The notes beneath the pieces were generated by a model. It was given only the letters and a program-made list of their open reading frames with translations. It had not been told where the DNA came from and did not search any database. Of a DNA stretch of 64,000 nt, positions 46,431 to 61,161 are shown in pieces. Made by a program: the position numbers and the translations under genes. Positions within the stretch are counted from its first letter, which is position 1, and every line of letters starts with the position of its first letter. Source of the DNA: Prevotella sp. (GTDB taxonomy: Bacteria; Bacteroidota; Bacteroidia; Bacteroidales; Bacteroidaceae); assembly GCA_017449495.1 (NCBI GenBank), contig JAFTFO010000001.1:1-64000 (forward strand), written 5' to 3'.

Positions 46431-48248
46431 TTAATCTATGATTCTCACGCCACCCTTGTCGGCCGATGACACACTCTGAGCGTAGGCTCTGAGGGCCTTC
46501 GACACCACTCGGTTACGCTTCAGCGGCTGCTGTTCCCGGGCAGCCAGTTCCTCGTCGGAGAGTTTCACATTGATGCTACGGGTCGGTATGTCGATGACGA
46601 TGATGTCGCCATCCTTGATCTTACCGATATTACCGCCGTTGGCAGCCTCGGGCGAGATATGGCCGATGCTGAGTCCGCTGGTGCCACCCGAGAAGCGGCC
46701 GTCGGTAATCAGGGCACACTCCTTGCCGAGGTGCATCGACTTGATATAAGAGGTGGGATAGAGCATCTCCTGCATGCCGGGGCCACCCTTCGGACCCTCG
46801 TGGGTAATCACCACGCAGTCGCCGCTCTTCACCCGTCCGCCGAGAATGCCCTCACAGGCATCTTCCTGGGAGTCGAACACCACGGCGGGACCCTCGAAGT
46901 GCCACAGCGCCTCGTCTACGCCAGCGGTCTTCACCACACAACCGTCCTGGGCAATATTGCCGAAGAGTACGGCCAGACCGCCGTCCTTCGTGTAGGCATG
47001 TTCGAGGTCTCTGATGCAACCGTTGGCACGATCTGTGTCGAGTGAAGGATACTGCTCGCTCTGCGATCCCATCTTAGTGGAGAAGCGGTTGCCGGGAGCA
47101 GAGAAGTAAATATGACGTGGATCATCACTCCCCTCACCCATTGGAGAGGGGTCGGTGGTGAGGCTATATCTTTTCATGGCTTCACCTAACGTCATGCCGT
47201 CCACGCGGATGGCGGAGCCGTCGATGAGTCCCCCTTTGTTCAGTTCGTTGAGGATGCCGAGGATACCACCGGCACGGTTGCACTCCTGAACAGAATACTT
47301 CTGGGTGTTCGGTGCCAGTTTGCAGAGGCAGGGCACCTTGCGGCTCAACTCGTCAATATCCTTCATCGTGAAGTCAGTACCGGCCTCCTGGGCCACGGCC
47401 AATAGATGGAGCACGGTATTGGTAGAGCCACCCATGGCGATATCGAGTGACATGGCGTTGAGGAAAGCCTGACGGGTGGCGATGCTGCGCGGCAGCACCG
47501 ACTCGTCGCCATCCTCATAGTAGGCGAAGGCGTTCTTGACAATCTGACGGGCAGCAGACTTGAACAATTCTATGCGGTTGGTGTGCGTGGCCAGGATCGT
47601 GCCGTTGCCGGGCAACGAGAGACCGATGGCCTCGGTCAGCGAGTTCATCGAGTTGGCGGTGAACATGCCGGAGCAGCTTCCGCAGCCCGGACAGGCGCAG
47701 GCCTCCAACTCTGCCATCTCTTCATCAGAGACTGTCGGGTCGGCACCCTTCACCATGGCCGTAATCAGGTCGGCATTCTCGCCGCGCCAGCGGCCTGCCT
47801 CCATCGGGCCTCCCGAACAGAACACCGTCGGGATGTTCAGTCGCATCGAGGCCATCAGCATGCCGGGCGTCACCTTGTCGCAGTTCGAGATACAGATCAT
47901 GGCATCAGCCTTATGGGCGTTGACCATATATTCCACGGAGTCGGCGATGATGTCGCGGGAGGGTAGCGAGTAGAGCATGCCATCATGACCCATGGCGATG
48001 CCGTCGTCGATGGCGATGGTGTTGAACTCGGCTGCATAACAGCCCATCTTCTCGATCTCCTCACGGACAATCTGACCTATCTCATGCAGGTGGGTATGAC
48101 CCGGCACAAACTGTGTAAACGAATTGACAATGGCAATGATAGGCTTGCCGAACTGCGCTTGTTTCATACCTGTGGCCACCCAGAGGGCACGGGCCCCAGC
48201 CATTCTACGGCCTTCCGTGCATACTGCACTTCTCAACTGATGCTTCAT
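46431..48248 (-). CDS. ilvD: Dihydroxy-acid dehydratase
   Basis: Iron-sulfur dehydratase, third common step of valine and isoleucine synthesis. The 605-aa protein has the cluster and substrate signatures [13 protein letters not shown] and [17 protein letters not shown], and [15 protein letters not shown]. Around residue 367-380 it has [16 protein letters not shown], longer than I expect from IlvD proteins and encoded by a palindrome (47128-47151). It heads the ilvD-ilvB-ilvN-GH53-thioesterase-DUF554 run and has its own promoter. Confidence 0.95.
47128..47151. repeat. Palindromic insertion inside ilvD
   Basis: CCCCTC (47130-47135) and GAGGGG (47146-47151) are inverted and surround ACCCATTGGA. 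The segment encodes SPMGEGS in frame. Confidence 0.5.
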
Positions 48249-51217: not shown

Positions 51218-51943
51218 TCATCTGATGCGGTCGTACCATTCCTTCAGGACGCCGCGTGGCGTGCCGTGGGAAACAAGGGCGTCGAGGGCCTCACGGGCTT
51301 CACGCTTGCGTCCCAGAAGGAGCAGAAGGTCGACCTTTGATACCGTAAATCCGGCATTGGCGGGCTTCAAGCGGATGGCCTCGCCCCAATCGAAGAGGGC
51401 CACCTCGTACTGCTGCTGCTCTGTCTCGAAGGCGGCACGGGCGGCATAGGCATCGGCGCTGTCGGGGAACATCTGGACGATATGGTTCAGCTCGTCCATC
51501 GTGTCAGACTTGCGCCCCATCTTCTGCAACACATGAGCCAGACCAAGACGAGCCTCGAGGTGCAGGGGCTCTATGGCGAGAAACGCGTCATAGTCGGCCT
51601 TCGCCTGACCATAGTGTTTCTGTCGCTCATGGACGTAGGCCCGGAAGAAGAGGGCCGCGAGGTTCTTCTCGTCGGCACGCAGGATGCGACCATACTCCGC
51701 CAGCGCATAGTCCCACCGCTCCAACTGGATGTCGGCCTCCGCCTTGCGCAGACGGAGGTCGATGTTGTTGGGGTCTTGCTTGAGGCTGGCGCTGAGCACC
51801 TCCAGGGAGTCACGCCATTGTTGACGTGTTAGAGATTGAGAAAAAGAGGAAAGAAGAAAATGGGAAAGAAATACCGCAGTCAGCAGCACACGCCATTTCC
51901 CATTTCCTCCATCTCTCATTCTCTCTTTTTCTTTACTTCTCAT
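51218..51943 (-). CDS. Tetratricopeptide-repeat protein
   Basis: A 241-aa protein with a signal-type hydrophobic stretch ([17 protein letters not shown]) and about four TPR units, for example [20 protein letters not shown] and the next unit [20 protein letters not shown]. The start is chosen at 51943, where ATGA overlaps the leuB stop (TGA 51942-51940); an upstream ATG at 51970 is also in frame. The protein is probably exported and a scaffold; function unknown. Last gene of the leu operon. Confidence 0.82.
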
Positions 51944-53001
51944 TGTCTCATGATATAATCCACGATCCACGATCCTACCTCACGGGTGCCATACTTGGCT
52001 CCGCCTTCTACTTGGATCTCGGGAGTGCGGACATGGGCATCGAGCGAAGCATTGACGGCCTCACGGACGAGGGCGCCCTCCTTGTTCAGACCGAAGTGCT
52101 CGAGCAGCATGGCGGCGGAGAGTATCTGTGCCAAGGGGTTGGCGAGATTCTGACCAGCGGCCTGAGGCCATGAGCCATGAACGGGCTCGAACAGCGGCGT
52201 ATGCTCGCCCAACGAGGATGAGGGCTGCAAGCCCATAGAGCCCGTGATGCAAGAAGTCTCGTCGGTGAGGATGTCGCCGAAGGTGTTCTCCGTCACGATG
52301 ACATCGAAGAACCGGGGATCTGTCAGCACACGCATAGAAGCGTTGTCGATGAACATATAGTCGGTCTTCACCTCGGGATACTGTGGTTCCATCTCCTGGG
52401 CGATCTGTCGCCACAGACGGGAAGAGGCCAGCACGTTGGCCTTGTCGACCACCGTCAGGTGCTTCCTTCTGGTCATAGCCATCTCGAAGGCCACCTTCAG
52501 GATACGCTCAATCTCGGGGCGGGTGTAGATGTCGGTATCGTAGGCCTTGTCGTTGTCCTGATACTTCTCACCGAAATACATGCCACCCGTCAGCTCACGG
52601 ATCACCACGAAGTCGGCACCACGCAGCAGTTCGTCCTTCAGCGGTGACTTGTGGAGCAGACAGTCGAAGGTGGCTACGGGGCGCACATTGGCAAAGAGCC
52701 CGAGTTTCTTACGCATGGCCAACAGGCCTGTCTCGGGACGTACCTTCGCCGTCGGGTTATTGTCATACTTCAGGTCGCCCACGGCAGCGAAGAGTACTGC
52801 ATCTGCACGCATACACACCTCGTGAGTACTTTCGGGATAAGGATCGCCCACCTCGTCGATGGCATGAGCACCGCAGATGGCAGGCTCGTATTCAAACTCG
52901 TGGCCGCATTTCTTGGCAATCGCGTCAAGCACAGCCACACCTTGTTTCATAATCTCGGGGCCGATACCATCGCCCTCAAGAATCGCAATCTTTAATTTCA
53001 T
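51940..53001 (-). CDS. leuB: 3-isopropylmalate dehydrogenase
   Basis: NAD-dependent oxidative decarboxylation in leucine synthesis. The 353-aa protein has [11 protein letters not shown] at the N-terminus, [10 protein letters not shown], and the metal/NAD segment [13 protein letters not shown], with [18 protein letters not shown] near the C-terminus. It is 15 nt after the leuA2 gene and couples to the TPR gene by ATGA. Confidence 0.97.
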
Positions 53002-53016
53002 ATCTTAATCTCTAAA

Positions 53017-54591
53017 CTATAAACTATCAACTTGTTCATTCTCATAGATGTTCAACATCTTAAACGTCGCCTTAATGGCGGCCTCCGTCTGGTCGGCATC
53101 GAGACCGCGGGTGCGGATGATCTTGCCGTTGTCATTCCAGGTGATGACCGTCTGCACGAGGGCGTCGGTTCGTCCGCCCGGGGGGATGGTGACGGCGTAG
53201 TTCTGCAGGATGGGGAACGTGCGGTTCAGGTACTTCTTATAAATATAGCGCAGCGACTTCACGAAGGCGTCGTACTGACCGTCGCCCGTGGCGCTGGCCT
53301 CATACTCCTGACCGTTGATCTCGACTTTAATGTTTGCTCCAGGCTTCAGACCGTAAGCTGTTGAAACAACATAACTTACCAACTTGACATTATCCTCTGG
53401 TGCGTCGTGCTTCAGCACGTCGCTGACGATGAAGGGCAGATCGTCTTGAGTGACGCGCTCTTTCTTGTCGCCCAGTTCTGTGATGCGCTGGGTGACGCGA
53501 CGAGTCTGCTCCGGAGTCAACTCCAAGCCGAGTTCCTCTAAATTCTTGATGATGTTCGCCTTGCCGCTGTTCTTGCCGAGGTCGTACTCCCGGCGACGAC
53601 CGAAGCGCTCAGGCACAAGGGCGTTCTGGTAGAGGCCGTTTTTCTTGTCGCCGTCAGCATGGACACCGGCCACCTGCGTAAACACATTGTCGCCGATGAT
53701 CGGCTGATTGGGCGCAACGGCAATACCACTATAGCTCTCCACCAGACGGGAGATGTCGTTGAGTTTATCCTCGCGGATGTTCGTCTTGGCGTTGAACTGG
53801 TCCTTCAGGATCACTTGCACACTCGACAGCGGCGCATTGCCACAACGCTCGCCCAGACCGTTCACCGTCACATGGAGTCCCTTCGCGCCGCTAAGCACGG
53901 CAGCGAGGGAGTTAGACACGGCCAGGTCGTAGTCGTTATGGGCGTGGAAGTCGAAGTGGGTATCGGGATAGCGCTTCATCATCTTACGGAAGTACTCGAT
54001 ACATTGCAGGGGGTTCATAATGCCAAGCGTGTCGGGGAGCATGAAACGGCGGATGCCGATGTCGCAGAGGGCATCCATCATCTGATAGACATAGAAGGGC
54101 GAATCCTTCATGCCGTTCGACCAGTCCTCGAGATAGAGGTTCACGGTCATGCCCTTGCTGCGGGCATATCTCACCGTCTGGCAGATGTCCTCGATGTGTT
54201 CCTCGGGCGTTTTCTTCAACTGTTCCTGACAATGGCGCAGCGAGCCCTTTGCCAACAGGTTGACGGTCTTACAGCCACAGGAGTCGATCCAGTCGATGCT
54301 CTTGCCACCGTCGATGAATCCAAGTACCTCTACCTGGCTAAGCTTGTCGATCTTCTCGGCAAAGCGGCAGATCATACCGACGGCCTCCTTCTCCCCTTCC
54401 GACACGCGGGCCGAGGCCACCTCGATGCGGTCTACGTTCAGGTCGTCGAGGAGCATGCGGGCGATGATGAGCTTCTCGTGTGGCAGGAAACTGACACCGC
54501 TGGTCTGCTCGCCGTCGCGCAACGTAGAGTCCATGATCTCTACAAAGGGTTGCAGGCGTCGATACTGTCCTACTTGTTCTGCTGTTCCCAT
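53017..54591 (-). CDS. Second 2-isopropylmalate synthase-type enzyme, probably citramalate synthase
   Basis: The 524-aa DRE-TIM metallolyase starts at MGTAEQVGQYRRLQPFVEI (54591), overlapping leuD by 22 nt; a longer in-frame extension inside leuD is not expected. It has IMDSTLRDGEQTSGVSF, DFHAHNDYDLAV and NGLGERCGNAPLSS, and a LeuA-type C-terminal dimer domain. It is a paralog of leuA in the same operon. Such second copies in Bacteroidales are often annotated as citramalate or isopropylmalate synthases; citramalate synthase would supply 2-oxobutyrate for isoleucine. That assignment is inference. Confidence 0.85.
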   Translation of the reverse strand: MGTAEQVGQYRRLQPFVEIMDSTLRDGEQTSGVSFLPHEKLIIARMLLDDLNVDRIEVASARVSEGEKEAVGMICRFAEKIDKLSQVEVLGFIDGGKSIDWIDSCGCKTVNLLAKGSLRHCQEQLKKTPEEHIEDICQTVRYARSKGMTVNLYLEDWSNGMKDSPFYVYQMMDALCDIGIRRFMLPDTLGIMNPLQCIEYFRKMMKRYPDTHFDFHAHNDYDLAVSNSLAAVLSGAKGLHVTVNGLGERCGNAPLSSVQVILKDQFNAKTNIREDKLNDISRLVESYSGIAVAPNQPIIGDNVFTQVAGVHADGDKKNGLYQNALVPERFGRRREYDLGKNSGKANIIKNLEELGLELTPEQTRRVTQRITELGDKKERVTQDDLPFIVSDVLKHDAPEDNVKLVSYVVSTAYGLKPGANIKVEINGQEYEASATGDGQYDAFVKSLRYIYKKYLNRTFPILQNYAVTIPPGGRTDALVQTVITWNDNGKIIRTRGLDADQTEAAIKATFKMLNIYENEQVDSL

Positions 54592-55166
54592 AGTTCTGTC
54601 TTTTCTTTGTTCTGTACGAGGAAGTCGATGTCGTCGAGCCCGTTCATCAGGCAATGTTTCTTGTAGCCGTTGATATCGAAGTGCTCGCTGTGGCCGGTGG
54701 CCTTGTTGGTCACGGTCTGCGCGGGGAGGTCGACCTCCACCTCTGTCTTCGAATCAGCCTTGATGCTGTCGAAGAGTTCCGTCAGGAATGCCTCAGACAC
54801 AACTACCGGCAGCACGAAGTTGTTCAGTTCGTTGTTCTTGTGGATATCGGCAAAGAAACTGCTGATGACCACTCTGAAGCCGTAGCCAGCGATGGCCCAG
54901 GCGGCATGTTCACGGCTCGATCCAGAACCGAAGTTCTTGCCTGCCACGAGGATACAGCCCGAGTAGCGGGGGTCGTTGAGCACGAAGTCCTTGTTCACGG
55001 TGCCGTCGCTGTTGTAGCGCCAGTCGCGGAACAGGTTGTCGCCAAAGAAACTCTCCTCACGCGTCGTTGCTTTCAGGAAACGAGCGGGGATGATCTGGTC
55101 GGTGTCCACATTCTCTAAAGGAAGGGGCACACAGGTGGATGTTATAACGTTGAATTTCTGTTTCAT
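54570..55166 (-). CDS. leuD: 3-isopropylmalate dehydratase small subunit
   Basis: A 198-aa swivel-domain subunit working with LeuC. Typical blocks are PLPLENVDTDQIIPARFLK and GKNFGSGSSREHAAWAI. It lies 27 nt after leuC and overlaps the leuA2 start. Confidence 0.96.
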   Translation of the reverse strand: MKQKFNVITSTCVPLPLENVDTDQIIPARFLKATTREESFFGDNLFRDWRYNSDGTVNKDFVLNDPRYSGCILVAGKNFGSGSSREHAAWAIAGYGFRVVISSFFADIHKNNELNNFVLPVVVSEAFLTELFDSIKADSKTEVEVDLPAQTVTNKATGHSEHFDINGYKKHCLMNGLDDIDFLVQNKEKTELWEQQNK

Positions 55167-55193: not shown

Positions 55194-56588
55194 TCAAATC
55201 ATCTCTCTGGGGTCGGTGATGACACCTGTGACGGCAGCAGCGGCTGCGACGAGGGGACTTGCCAGGATGGTGCGGGCACCAGGACCCTGACGACCCTCAA
55301 AGTTACGGTTAGAGGTCGACACGCTGAGTTTACCGGCAGGAATCTTGTCGTCGTTCATGGCCAGACAGGCCGAGCAACCTGGCTGACGAATCTCAAAGCC
55401 CGCAGCCTCAAGCACCTTGTCAAGGCCTTCCTCTCGGATCTGACGATCCACAGCCCATGAGCCGGGAACGAGCCAGGCAATGACATCTTTCGCCTTCTGA
55501 CGACCCTTCACGATGGAGGCAAAGGCACGGAAGTCCTCAATGCGGCCATTGGTGCAGGCACCAAGGAACACGTAGTCCACCTTCTTACCCAACAGTTTCT
55601 CGCCGGGCTGGAATCCCATGTAGTCCAGTGCTTTCTGGAAGCCCTGCTCAGGCGACTTGGCCTGGGCAGCCGTCTCAGGAATGTTCTCCGTAATCCCGAT
55701 GCCCATGCCGGGGTTGGTTCCATAAGTGATGCGCGGTTCGACATCTTCCGCCTTGAAAATCAACTCCTTATCAAACACAGCATCGTCTCCACTCTTCAAT
55801 GTCTTCCAATAGGCAACGGCCTTATCCCAATCATCACCCTTCGGGGCGAAGTCACGCCCCTTGATATAGGCGAACGTGGTCTCATCAGGCGCGATGAAAC
55901 CGCCTCTGGCACCCATCTCGATAGAGAGGTTACAGAGCGTCAGGCGACCCTCCATCGATAATGTTGTAATGACATCACCGGCATACTCCACGAAATAACC
56001 AGTAGCGCCTGAGGTCGTCAGTTGTGCCATCAGATAGAGGGCCACGTCTTTCGCTGTTACACCCTTACCCAACTGACCGTTGATGGTGATGCGCATCGAC
56101 TTCGGCTTCTGCTGAAGGATGCATTGCGAGGCCAATACCATCTCCACCTCTGAGGTTCCTATGCCGAAGGCCACGGCTCCCATCGCTCCATGCGTCGACG
56201 TATGCGAGTCGCCACAGACAATCGTCATGCCTGGCAGAGAGAGTCCTTTCTCAGGTCCTACCACGTGGATGATACCATTGCTCTTATCCATCATGCCGTA
56301 GTGCGCAAGTCCGAACTCAGCGGCATTCTTGGCCAGCGTGTCCACCTGTTTCTTGCTCACGGGGTCCTCGATGGGTTTGTCTTGATCGTGCGTCGGCGTA
56401 TTATGGTCAGGCATACAGAATATCTGTCCCGGGCGGAAACACTTCAGTCCACGGGCACGCATTCCGTCGAAGGCCTGCGGCGACGTTACCTCATGACAGT
56501 ACAGCCGATCGATATACAACTGTGTCGGACCATCCTCCACCTGCTGAACCACGTGCTTGTCCCAAATCTTATCAAATAGTGTATTCAT
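55194..56588 (-). CDS. leuC: 3-isopropylmalate dehydratase large subunit
   Basis: A 464-aa aconitase-family Fe-S isomerase. The start [14 protein letters not shown] is preceded by leuA with a 1-nt overlap (TGATG). Signatures include [14 protein letters not shown] and the cluster Cys in [14 protein letters not shown] and [11 protein letters not shown]. Pairs with LeuD. Confidence 0.97.
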
Positions 56589-58090
56589 CAGTCTTCTTTC
56601 TTAAATTTATTGATACAGTCGATATATGCCTCGACAGAAGCCGTCACGATATCCGTGTTGGCACCGAAGCCATAGTAAAGCGAACCGTCGTACTCCACCT
56701 GCATGTGAACCTTACCCACATCGTCAGAGCCCTTCGAAATGGCCTGGATGGTGAACTCCTTCAGTGTCATCTGCTTCATGATGATCTTCTTCAGCGCCTT
56801 GATGGCGGCATCCACAGGACCGTTGCCCGAGGCAGCAGCCTCAAACTTCTGTCCGCTGATGTCAAGCCCGATGGAGGCCACGCTCTTCACACCCTTACCA
56901 GTGGTCACCTGCAGGAAGTCGAGACGTACAGCATGGGCGTCGGCCATATCGGCACCAGCCAGCATCAGCACATCAGCATCGGTCACCTCCTTCTTCTGAT
57001 CGGCCAATGACAGGAACTTCTCATAAATCTTGTCGAGTTTCTCTTCCTCGAGGTCTACGCCGTTCACGTGCAGACGGTGCTTCAGGGCTGCACGGCCACT
57101 GCGGGCGGTGAGCACGATCGAGTTATCGTCGATGCCCACATCCTTCGGGTCGATGATCTCGTAGGTATGCACATTCTTCAATACGCCATCCTGATGGATG
57201 CCACTTGAGTGAGCAAAGGCATTACGACCCACAATGGCCTTGTTCGGCTGTACGGGCATGTTCATCAGACTCGAAACCATACGGCTGGTCGGATAGATTT
57301 TCGTGGTGTTGATATTCGTGTCGATGCCGAGACCCTTGTGGCACTTCAAGATCATGGCGATCTCTTCGAGCGAGGTGTTACCAGCCCGCTCACCGATGCC
57401 ATTGATGGTCACCTCCACCTGTCGGGCGCCCGCCATCACGCCGTTAAACGTGTTGGCTGTGGCCATGCCTAAGTCATTGTGACAATGGGTCGAGATGATG
57501 GCACGGTCAATGCCGTCGACATGCTCTTTCAGATACTTAATCTTCTCATAATACTCCTGCGGCAGACAGTAGCCCGTCGTGTCGGGGATATTTACAACTG
57601 TTGCGCCAGCCTTGATCACAGCCTCTACCACACGGGCGAGGTACTCGTTGTCCGTGCGGCCGGCATCCTCGCAGTAGAACTCCACGTCGTCGACGAAGCG
57701 CTTGGCATACTTCGTGGCAGCCACAGCCCGTCCGAGAATCTCCTCACGGGTGGAGTTGAACTTGTACTTGATGTGCTCGTCGCTTGTGCCGATACCCGTG
57801 TGGATGCGCTTGTGCTTGGCATACTTCAGGGCGTCGAAGGCCACGTCGATATCCTTCTCCACCGCCCGCGTCAGGGCACAGATCACGGGCCACGTCACGG
57901 CCTTTGAGATTTCAATCACCGAATTATAGTCTCCGGGGCTCGAAATGGGAAATCCTGCTTCGATCACGTCCACGCCCAACTGCTCCAGGGCCTTTGCCAC
58001 CTGAATCTTCTCTACGGTGTTTAACTGGCATCCGGGAACCTGCTCGCCGTCGCGCAGGGTTGTGTCGAAAATAAACAATCTGTCATTCAT
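56588..58090 (-). CDS. leuA: 2-isopropylmalate synthase
   Basis: First committed step of leucine synthesis, condensing acetyl-CoA with 2-oxoisovalerate. The 500-aa protein has [33 protein letters not shown] and [14 protein letters not shown], followed by the regulatory C-terminal domain ([20 protein letters not shown]). It heads leuACD-leuA2-leuB-TPR and is preceded by a leader-peptide attenuator. Confidence 0.97.
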
Positions 58091-58151
58091 CGTCTTGTTT
58101 GTTTTTATTAATGTTGTTAATATGTATTCTGTTCTCTTGAGATGTTTGTTT

Positions 58152-58189
58152 AAAAATTAAGCCCTTCACACTCGGAAGTGAGAAGGGCT
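58152..58189 (-). terminator. Attenuator terminator of the leu operon
   Basis: On the minus strand AGCCCTTC (58189-58182) pairs with GAAGGGCT (58167-58160), with an inner CACT/AGTG pairing, then TTAATTTTT. It stands 62 nt before leuA and 33 nt after the leader-peptide stop. Confidence 0.92.
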
Positions 58190-58222
58190 CTATATCGTTT
58201 CGTATGTTTCTTACCTTATTAA

Positions 58223-58303
58223 TTATATATACGCCTTATCACTTCCGCCTGCTCCCTGCAGTCGAATAATAATCAGGCCACCCAGTAGATTAAGATTCAT
58301 CAT
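58223..58303 (-). CDS. leuL: Leu/Ile-rich leader peptide of the leuA operon
   Basis: A 26-codon frame on the minus strand from ATG at 58303 to TAA at 58225-58223. It begins MMNLNLLGGLIIIRL, so five of the first fifteen residues are Leu and three are Ile, then ends in GGSDKAYI. Bases 58246-58234, which encode GGSDK, read GGAAGTGATAAGG and can pair with 12 of 13 bases of the terminator's 5' arm (58186-58174). A ribosome stalled on Leu/Ile codons would leave the antiterminator free; a ribosome at the stop would cover it. This is the layout of translation-controlled attenuation. Confidence 0.87.
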   Translation of the reverse strand: MMNLNLLGGLIIIRLQGAGGSDKAYI

Positions 58304-58333
58304 ACTTTTCTTACATTTTCTCGTTTTCGGCTG

Positions 58334-58365
58334 CAAAAGTAAACATTTTCATTGTAACCAACAAA
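58334..58365 (-). promoter_or_regulatory. Consensus promoter of the leu operon (-33 TTTG, -7 TACTTTTG)
   Basis: On the minus strand TTTG (58365-58362) and TACTTTTG (58341-58334) are exactly 20 bp apart. The start should be near 58327, about 24 nt before the leader peptide. Confidence 0.85.
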
Positions 58366-58416
58366 TATTTTGTCACTTTTTTGCCCAAAACTCTTTCTTA
58401 ATGTCATTTTTTAACA

Positions 58417-58455
58417 AAAGAAACCGCTGATTCTATGAGAGTCAGCGGTTTCTTT
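58417..58455. terminator. Strong hairpin upstream of the leu promoter
   Basis: AAAGAAACCGCTGA (58417-58430) pairs with TCAGCGGTTTCTTT (58442-58455). Flanks are A/T-rich on both sides. It probably insulates the leu promoter from the exbD transcript. Confidence 0.75.
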
Positions 58456-58481: not shown

Positions 58482-58668
58482 GTTAGCGTTTGCCTATAGG
58501 CGAACGGTCGTTTGAGTATAGGCAAACGGTTGTTTGAGTACAGGCAAACGGTAGAAAGGATAGGGTAAAACCCCTATGCTCATGCCTGTTAACCCCTATC
58601 AACAGGCATCACTATCCCAGTTAACAGGCATCATCAACAACGTAAGAAGGCATCAGCAACAACGTTAC
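58482..58668. repeat. Dispersed intergenic repeat, family B, copy 2
   Basis: A 22-bp unit (consensus TGTTTGAGTAYAGGCAAACG) occurs in tandem between 58484 and 58553, then GATAGGGTAAAACCCCT, then a 9-bp inverted repeat ATGCCTGTT/AACAGGCAT (58582-58590 and 58601-58609), and a CATCARCAACAACGT repeat. It shares its whole plan with 50941-51083. No gene lies between 58304 and 58768. Confidence 0.85.
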
Positions 58669-60097: not shown

Positions 60098-60937
60098 CTA
60101 AGCATTATGCTTTAAATTACCTTGGGATTTATATTCCGTAATCAGGTCGAGGAGCGTGATGGCAGACTCTTCCATCTGAGCCGTCAGACGCTCGATCTTC
60201 GAGAGGATATAGCTATAGAAGAGCTGTAGGATGAGTGCCACGACAATACCAAAGATGGTCGTAATGAGTGCCACCTTCATACCACTCGCCACAATCGTAG
60301 GGCCGATATCACCCGCCTGTTGAATCTGGTCGAAAGCCATCACCATACCAATCACCGTACCGAGGAATCCTAACGACGGTGCCATGGCGATGAAGAGCTT
60401 GATCCACGAGCAGCCCTTTTCAAGGTTGGCAGCCTGCAGACCGCCATAGTTCGTGATGGAGCGTTCAATGGCATCCATCGACTGGTGGATATGCAACAAC
60501 CCCTGATAACACACACTCGCCACTGGTCCACGGGTGTTGCGACAGAGGGCCTTCGCACCTTCCACATCGTCTTGTTTGAGACGACTCTCAATGTCCTCCA
60601 TGAGCTTATGGGCCTTGATTTCCGAAAGCGTCAGGTAGATGATACGCTCAATGCAGAAGGCAAGTCCTAACACGAGGGCAAGGGCAACAAGCGACATGAA
60701 TCCCGCATTACCGTCAATAAACTTCGTCTTCAACTGTTTGTGGAAACCTCCTTCCTCGACGTCAGCCTCGGCATCATCCGCCAGCATAGCCTCTGTAGCC
60801 AGAGAGTCGGCAATCGCCAATGAGTCGTTTGCCACGACAACAGTGGAAGACACACTGTCTATAGGAGAATCTTTTTGAGCTTGGATGGCTTGCGAGAAAC
60901 ACAGCAAACCAATTAATGTAAACAGAATAGATTTCAT
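60098..60937 (-). CDS. exbB: ExbB/TolQ/MotA-family proton channel
   Basis: The 279-aa protein starts at MKSILFTLIGLLCFSQA (60937); the longer open frame reads through tRNA-Ser and is not real. It has a signal-like N-terminus, an acidic spacer (EAMLADDAEADVEEG), and the MotA/ExbB channel helices (FIAMAPSLGFLGTVIGMVMA and ALITTIFGIVVALILQLF). It forms the channel around the ExbD dimer. Confidence 0.93.
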   Translation of the reverse strand: MKSILFTLIGLLCFSQAIQAQKDSPIDSVSSTVVVANDSLAIADSLATEAMLADDAEADVEEGGFHKQLKTKFIDGNAGFMSLVALALVLGLAFCIERIIYLTLSEIKAHKLMEDIESRLKQDDVEGAKALCRNTRGPVASVCYQGLLHIHQSMDAIERSITNYGGLQAANLEKGCSWIKLFIAMAPSLGFLGTVIGMVMAFDQIQQAGDIGPTIVASGMKVALITTIFGIVVALILQLFYSYILSKIERLTAQMEESAITLLDLITEYKSQGNLKHNA

Positions 60938-60996
60938 AAGTCCCATTCTATAATAAACAGGATTCGCTTGAAGGCGTTTTGAACCTGTTATTCCTG

Positions 60997-61084
60997 CGGA
61001 GAGAACAGGATTCGAACCTGCGAACCAGTTTTGCCGGTTACACGCTTTCCAGGCGTGCCTCTTCAACCACTCGAGCACCTCTCC
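60997..61084 (-). tRNA. tRNA-Ser (anticodon GGA)
   Basis: 88 nt on the minus strand. Acceptor stem GGAGAGG pairs with TCTCTCC, discriminator G; anticodon stem CACGC/GCGTG with loop CTGGAAA (anticodon GGA); long variable arm with an ACCGG/CTGGT pair; T arm GCAGGTTCGAATCCTGT. CCA is not encoded. It lies between tatD and exbB, 59 nt before exbB. Confidence 0.95.
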
Positions 61085-61101
61085 TTTTTGAATTGCGACT
61101 G

Positions 61102-61109
61102 CAAAGGTA
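61102..61109 (-). promoter_or_regulatory. -7 box (TACCTTTG) of tRNA-Ser
   Basis: The minus strand reads TACCTTTG 17 nt upstream of the tRNA. It may also supply the exb operon by read-through. Confidence 0.55.
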
Positions 61110-61161
61110 ATCATTTTCTTTGAACTATAAACTTTGAACTTATATCTTTATGATTTGTTAA

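Follow-up and report, generated by a model that had tools for sequence, protein, structure and literature searches.

A probable ribosome-mediated attenuator upstream of leuA in a Prevotella genome and related leaders in Bacteroidales

Little is known about how amino-acid synthesis is controlled in Bacteroidales, which are dominant in the gut and the rumen. The question raised by the locus described here is whether a short frame rich in Leu and Ile codons, lying before leuA in a Prevotella sp. genome (contig JAFTFO010000001.1; the window, i.e. the whole stretch of DNA that was analysed, comprises 64,000 nucleotides), serves as the leader of a transcription attenuator, and which amino acids it would read. 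We consider it very probable, from sequence and folding models, that the region acts on the leuA-leuC-leuD-cimA-like-leuB operon as a ribosome-mediated transcription attenuator. What was observed, and what this reading is built on, is the anatomy of the region, its conservation, its pairing, the position of its codons and the match between codon content and operon type. If such attenuators form a recognisable family before leuA and ilvD, the sequence would tell which amino acids control which operon.

The leader region and the operon downstream

Read directly at the base level, the minus strand carries in order a promoter, a leader frame, an antiterminator inside that frame, a terminator and leuA. 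The promoter (58334..58365), TTTG-N20-TACTTTTG, consists of TTTG at 58365-58362, a 20-nt spacer and TACTTTTG at 58341-58334; it was named as such because it exactly matches TTTG / TAnnTTTG, which we take to be the Bacteroidota promoter consensus. The leader peptide frame MMNLNLLGGLIIIRLQGAGGSDKAYI (58223..58303, 26 codons plus stop) has five Leu among residues 1-15 and three consecutive Ile at positions 11-13. Among the 655 short ATG frames (15-40 aa) on both strands of the window, only two had at least 8 Leu and Ile among residues 2-16; these were the leader's own two in-frame ATGs, each scoring 8. The putative control codons Ile11 Ile12 Ile13 Arg14 Leu15 (58259..58273), so designated from their conserved positions and from the stall model below, build together with the GGSDK codons the hairpin 1:2 (58233..58278; GCCT...AGGC), a predicted fold that competes with the antiterminator. 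Strand 2, the antiterminator CGGAAGTGATAAGG (58234..58247), lies within the coding frame and pairs with strand 3 (58173..58186), the 5' arm of the terminator, as assigned by fold and pairing counts: between GGAAGTGATAAGG (58246-58234) and CCTTCTCACTTCC (58186-58174), 12 of 13 positions pair. The intrinsic terminator stem-loop 3:4 (58159..58190; -20.1 kcal/mol in the fold) is followed by TTAATTTTTA, its U-tract TTAATTTTTAA (58150..58160) is interrupted by AA, and leuA starts at 58090. The original prediction had named the consensus promoter, the 26-codon frame with five Leu and an Ile triplet, the terminator and leuA, and had placed the antiterminator inside the peptide-coding part through the 12/13 pairing of the GGSDK codons; all of this was confirmed base by base.

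A generic promoter/terminator scan, which did not have the window's leuA terminator among its calls and returned a lone promoter-like match elsewhere, was dropped because its promoter type was unfit for the phylum and the terminator was missed. Our first terminator script, which picked an upstream stem-loop in the window and missed several loci, was also dropped and was replaced by a motif search and a duplex-based detector.

The operon genes all lie on the minus strand. The first, leuA (56588..58090), encoding 2-isopropylmalate synthase, matched TIGR00973 with 666.3 bits (cutoff 598.7); leuC (55194..56588) matched TIGR00170 with 636.2 bits (cutoff 560.25), leuD (54570..55166) matched TIGR00171 with 184.8 bits (cutoff 116.25) and leuB (51940..53001), the last, matched TIGR00169 with 423.6 bits (cutoff 353.2). 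The fourth gene (53017..54654; start codon uncertain) was named cimA-like from its NCBIfam and solved-relative matches. Its best NCBIfam match was CimA NF042433 with 610.9 bits, below the cutoff of 950, and its best solved relative was the Leptospira citramalate synthase 3ble (E 1.5e-116; next 5.3e-57), which makes a citramalate synthase likely by sequence, not certain.

Conservation, pairing and control codons in related leuA loci

A LeuA search gave at least 586 loci, of which the best 80 were taken as the related loci; by their titles, these came mostly from Prevotella and Prevotellaceae. The motif pair with an overlying frame was found at 60 of them, and L010, L069 and L071 were added by eye. 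A homologous leader, antiterminator and terminator were thus recognised at 63 of the 80 loci, which together with the window form the alignment A1 of 64 sequences. In the motif search six of the 60 frames were extended (L002, L003, L009, L067; TTG starts) or read in another frame (L066, L077); the codon figures given here were counted on the aligned frame. The other 17 of the 80 loci had no leader in the aligned set, L038 among them possibly having a shifted form. At the remaining 16, 18-61 nt before leuA, the promoter was exact in ten and had one mismatch in four, and no promoter was found before leuA at two (L029, L065). Since most of the leaderless loci have a promoter near leuA, gain or loss of the leader has occurred within the group. 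A second match of the leader DNA in the window's own genome (L082) was rejected, being by eye a promoter-like stretch alone with no leader.

For 60 of the 80 loci plus the window, an exact promoter was found upstream of the leader in 58 of 61 (shuffles 9/1220), and an exact consensus promoter between antiterminator and leuA in none of the 61. A transcription start downstream of 58223, which would have told against the original prediction, thus has no exact-consensus candidate in these sequences.

In the 64 sequences, helix 2:3 was paired in 95.5% of cells, and sliding the partner by 1-3 columns left 42-61%. This helix is nearly invariant in the close set: two pairs were changed on both sides, a number reached by 141 of 500 shuffles, and covariation is weak here because strand 2:3 hardly varies. 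Helices 1:2 and 3:4 jointly were paired in 87.1% of cells and had 14 pairs changed on both sides versus 7.5 in shuffles that preserve column make-up, not kinship (0/500 reached 14). Taken separately, the core of hairpin 1:2 was paired in 89.9% of cells, its outer pairs being poorly kept (61-68% of cells), and the terminator helix 3:4 was paired in 93.3%; in this core and in the terminator helix alike, 5 of 13 pairs had changes on both sides. From the entire alignment, RNAalifold returned helix 2:3 as the sole helix. Furthermore, in eight of the 64 leaders strand 2 is read in a different frame, giving a peptide that ends in RK, WK or WKC, yet the GGAAGTG core is kept, which favours selection on these bases as RNA.

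The complete window leader, folded to minimum energy, contains hairpin 1:2. In an equilibrium model without ribosome, with the RNA ending just after strand 3, P(2:3) was 1.0 and P(1:2) 0.0 for the window, the means of the set being 0.65 and 0.28. Because 2:3 is favoured without a ribosome, shut-off of an untranslated leader would need hairpin 1:2 to form first; default termination, with no ribosome on the leader, is left unexplained at equilibrium in this model.

The control codons keep a fixed place. Some 15 nt before strand 2 stands a Leu codon in 64/64 sequences, the next codon upstream is Arg in 59/64 and Leu in 5/64, and the codon two before the conserved Leu is Ile in 60/64 and Leu in 4/64. 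The conservation of the Leu and Ile codons and of the pairing, without which the original prediction would have lost its ground, was therefore found, and its reading as ribosome-mediated attenuation is supported by the conserved leader, codons and pairing, as far as sequence can tell. The leading edge of a ribosome lies 12 nt beyond the A-site codon, and with this value stalls were modelled on the 56 in-frame leaders. A stall anywhere between 48 and 15 nt before strand 2 gave a mean P(2:3) of 0.97-0.99; the mean dropped to 0.85 for a stall at 12 nt and to 0.39 at 9 nt, and was 0 at 6 nt or closer. For a stall at the last Leu codon it was 0.99, and at the next codon 0.85. Since P(2:3) falls past 15 nt, the last Leu would be the edge of the responsive zone. 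The control codons are thus placed so that a modelled stalled ribosome frees the antiterminator, and all 64 leaders share the position of the last one.

Codon choice before strand 2 also differs from that of the leuA genes at the same loci: CTA makes up 68/226 Leu codons (30% vs 1%), ATT 242/262 Ile codons (92% vs 34%) and CGA 70/101 Arg codons (69% vs 5%), in a sample of 64 leaders from related loci whose shared ancestral bases are not independent. These ATT and CGA codons make up the first strand of helix 1:2, and the bias towards them may instead serve that helix. In the Salmonella leu attenuator CUA is described as the control codon, and its replacement by CUG lowered the sensitivity (PMC1183508).

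From these features we infer leader translation, a starvation signal, stalling and readthrough in the following manner. RNA polymerase would start near 58327, a position derived from the promoter, and a ribosome would translate the 26-codon leader behind it. When Leu and Ile are plentiful, the ribosome would pass Ile11-Leu15 onto the GGSDK codons and cover strand 2; terminator 3:4 could then form and transcription would end before leuA. Under a shortage of charged tRNA-Leu or tRNA-Ile, the ribosome would stall at or before Leu15, holding strand 1 with its leading edge just short of strand 2. Strand 2 would then be free to pair with strand 3, no terminator would form and the operon would be transcribed.

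Leaders before leuA and ilvD across Bacteroidales

A covariance model (R1) had matches in 33 of 148 sampled Bacteroidales genomes, the window's own included. Of the 29 other R1-matched loci that were read, 19 lie before leuA, six before ilvD and four have neither key motif. In the window's own genome, which is 68% complete, R1 found solely this locus, the second match being its other strand.

For a wider survey we used a content-blind detector, which requires a terminator, an upstream duplex partner at -14 kcal/mol or below and an overlying ATG frame, and ignores codons. It was run on leuA upstreams from 60 of the 63 genomes with a match (the own genome and two N-terminally incomplete matches were left out) and on ilvD upstreams of the order from 60 of 67 (own, six low-rank others and second copies left out). 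Detections were made at 22/60 leuA and 30/60 ilvD upstreams, with at least two of them doubtful (L159 before leuA, L178 before ilvD), and at 0/180 and 1/180 shuffles, respectively; the strict detector failed at 38/60 leuA upstreams across the order. The residues before strand 2 were 24.5% Leu, 22.7% Ile and 0.8% Val in the 22 detected leuA leaders (396 residues), and 19.8% Leu, 17.0% Ile and 21.1% Val in the ilvD leaders (541 residues). Val accounted for 3/396 residues before leuA versus 114/541 before ilvD (Fisher p 7e-26, residues not being independent), and leaders with at least two Val in the whole peptide numbered 4/22 versus 27/30 (p 2e-7). With Leu and Ile codons frequent and Val nearly absent in the leuA leaders, codon content matches the type of operon.

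Pairing was also compared between loci, without an energy threshold, an earlier thresholded version of the test having been biased; 75 of the 120 upstreams had a suitable hairpin. Duplexes of a locus's own strands 2 and 3 averaged -15.8 kcal/mol versus -11.5 kcal/mol with foreign leaders, 0/10000 permutations being as low, and at 35 of the 75 upstreams the own duplex was better than at least 90% of foreign leaders. The compensatory changes in helix 2:3 that the original prediction had called for were few in the close set; they were seen among distant Bacteroidales, where pairing is changed but kept, for example, at L097 (CTGAGAATGG with CCATTCTCAG) and L108 (GGTAG with CTACC).

Outside Bacteroidales, the strict detector was run on ilvD upstreams from 20 of 20 genomes of the same class and 20 of 65 from elsewhere in the phylum, and found 2/20 and 1/20, respectively. 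By eye, three ilvD loci outside the order that this detector did not accept (L236, L237, L267) have Val/Ile-rich short frames followed by a stem-loop and are possible attenuators. The 5' region of the window's own ilvD (46443-48248, minus strand) is short, at some 45 nt after TAAATTTG, and no leader was seen in it by eye.

Signals probably read by the leader and comparison with known systems

LeuCD and LeuB also act when Ile is made by way of citramalate. At E 1e-60, the TIGR01127 model for threonine deaminase matched in five of 25 relatives (the own genome included in the sample). A strong IlvA match was absent in 13 of 14 same-genus genomes and present in one of the eight of these that are at least 90% complete, and the own, 68% complete genome had none; the model missed 4 of 14 control genomes, one a Bacteroides, so such absence is not proof. 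PF00291 was dropped for this purpose, being too broad to separate threonine deaminase from its relatives. Given the absence in 13 of 14 genomes, citramalate would be the likely route to Ile. The leaders themselves were compared by operon content in 34 of the 60 loci plus the window, each leader being hand-picked among the frames with the most Ile, Leu and Val. At least three Ile were present in 28/28 leaders with cimA in the operon and in 3/7 others (Fisher p 0.0007, with the cut chosen post hoc); when G049 and G065, whose contigs end too soon, were left out, the latter became 2/5 (p 0.002). The share of Ile was 0.30 in non-cimA versus 0.49 in cimA leaders, with no significant difference (Mann-Whitney p 0.16). 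Taken together, this is suggestive at most: operons that include cimA would have leaders richer in Ile, and whether Ile codons come and go with that gene is directly testable.

The sequences indicate that Ile is probably sensed beside Leu, because the Ile codons are about as conserved as the Leu codons, a cimA-like gene lies in the operon and Val runs are absent from the leuA leaders; what the original prediction had held merely possible for Ile is raised to probable. The same attenuator might instead have Leu as its sole signal, the Ile run being present for the AUU codons that form strand 1 of hairpin 1:2. We think this unlikely: Leu is indeed invariably the codon closest to strand 2, and an ATT share of 92% exceeds what the tRNA argument needs in bases that pair in helix 1:2, but Ile-rich leuA leaders recur in distant Bacteroidales (the 22 detected), leaders without cimA are poorer in Ile under the post hoc cut (p 0.16 for Ile share), and the nearly general lack of a strong IlvA match in the genus makes citramalate the likely source of Ile.

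Readings without tRNA-dependent stalling fare far worse. The terminator could set a constant basal level, with the leader peptide irrelevant or a hydrophobic small protein; the peptide is hydrophobic, but this is very improbable, as Val content tracks operon type, the peptide tail shifts frame in 8/64 leaders with the RNA core kept and the control codons stand at a fixed distance from strand 2. Equally hard to credit is nascent-peptide arrest, in which a conserved I-R-L, as in the run of Ile, Arg and Leu codons in 60, 59 and 64 of the 64 leaders, would stall the ribosome on the free amino acid and not on uncharged tRNA, since distant leaders by eye keep the Ile/Leu richness and not the I-R-L motif, and hairpin 1:2 can account for the conserved bases.

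Beyond ribosome-mediated attenuation of this operon by Leu and probably Ile, we incline slightly towards a broader reading, in which the branched-chain attenuators of Bacteroidota would form one family, old and modular. In such a family the control codons would be strand 1 and the antiterminator would lie in the frame; codon content would be rewritten with the operon genes (mainly Leu; Leu and Ile once a citramalate synthase joins; Val, Ile and Leu before ilvD), and the final Leu would be locked at the stalled ribosome's edge, one switch reading two amino acids.

The proposed mechanism is of the known enterobacterial kind. Enterobacterial leu has a short leader frame, alternative hairpins and a terminator before leuA, and in ilvGMEDA and ilvBN one leader reads several branched-chain amino acids. 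What the window leader has in common with leuL is its Leu control codons, which include CUA (PMC1183508, on the leader of Salmonella); it differs, by description, in having Ile beside Leu codons, a cimA-like gene in the operon and the antiterminator inside the frame. The same paper names ilvGMEDA and ilvBN as attenuation systems of enterobacteria (PMC1183508). The Bacteroidales ilvD leaders resemble these in having Val, Ile and Leu codons, a likeness of codon content and not of compared sequences, whereas the leuA leaders are almost without Val codons before the antiterminator (3/396). In Actinobacteria, another phylum, leader-frame control of branched-chain operons (Corynebacterium ilvB and others) is alike by description (PMC10272879; PMC11857589; PMC1262725).

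Within Bacteroidota, a transcriptome study of Flavobacterium psychrophilum reported "strong clues" for leader-peptide attenuation before amino-acid operons, its section on 5' cis-regulatory RNAs naming pheA and hisG, among other conserved 5' elements, and no leu or ilv operon (PMC9723704), so that the earlier statement that Leu/Ile attenuators are little described in this phylum is fair, though the field is not empty. A transcript map of Bacteroides thetaiotaomicron mentions leader-like short frames in general (PMC7366714). Among the open-access matches listed, no description of a leu or ilv attenuator in Bacteroidota was found by title and start of abstract. A comparative survey by Vitreschak et al. 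in 2004 reportedly lists Bacteroidetes/Chlorobi cases. Rfam models run over the window gave a tRNA alone at gathering score and no leader family (e.g. Leu_leader); on 58100-58400 there were eight matches up to E 10, none a leader family. Two things make the locus of interest: a recognisable family of such switches, which we found hardly described in this phylum, and codon content tied to operon content. The likeness points to a recurrence of the classical mechanism, down to the CUA choice of the Salmonella leu leader, in a phylum whose promoters are different.

Some neighbouring features were also observed. Upstream of the leader, an inverted repeat at 58420-58452 may end the preceding gene, and at 58487-58552 a partly palindromic unit of 22 bp is repeated in tandem, three copies in all. 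Across the own genome there are 14 occurrences of the pattern GTTTGCCTRTANNCAAAC, alone or in twos and threes spaced 22 bp apart, and 0 of the reversed pattern. A tRNA-Ser (gga; 60996-61114, minus strand) lies inside the start of the called frame 60098-61114; the first residues of that frame would thus be translated tRNA, with the actual gene, which by eye is ExbB-like, starting further in.
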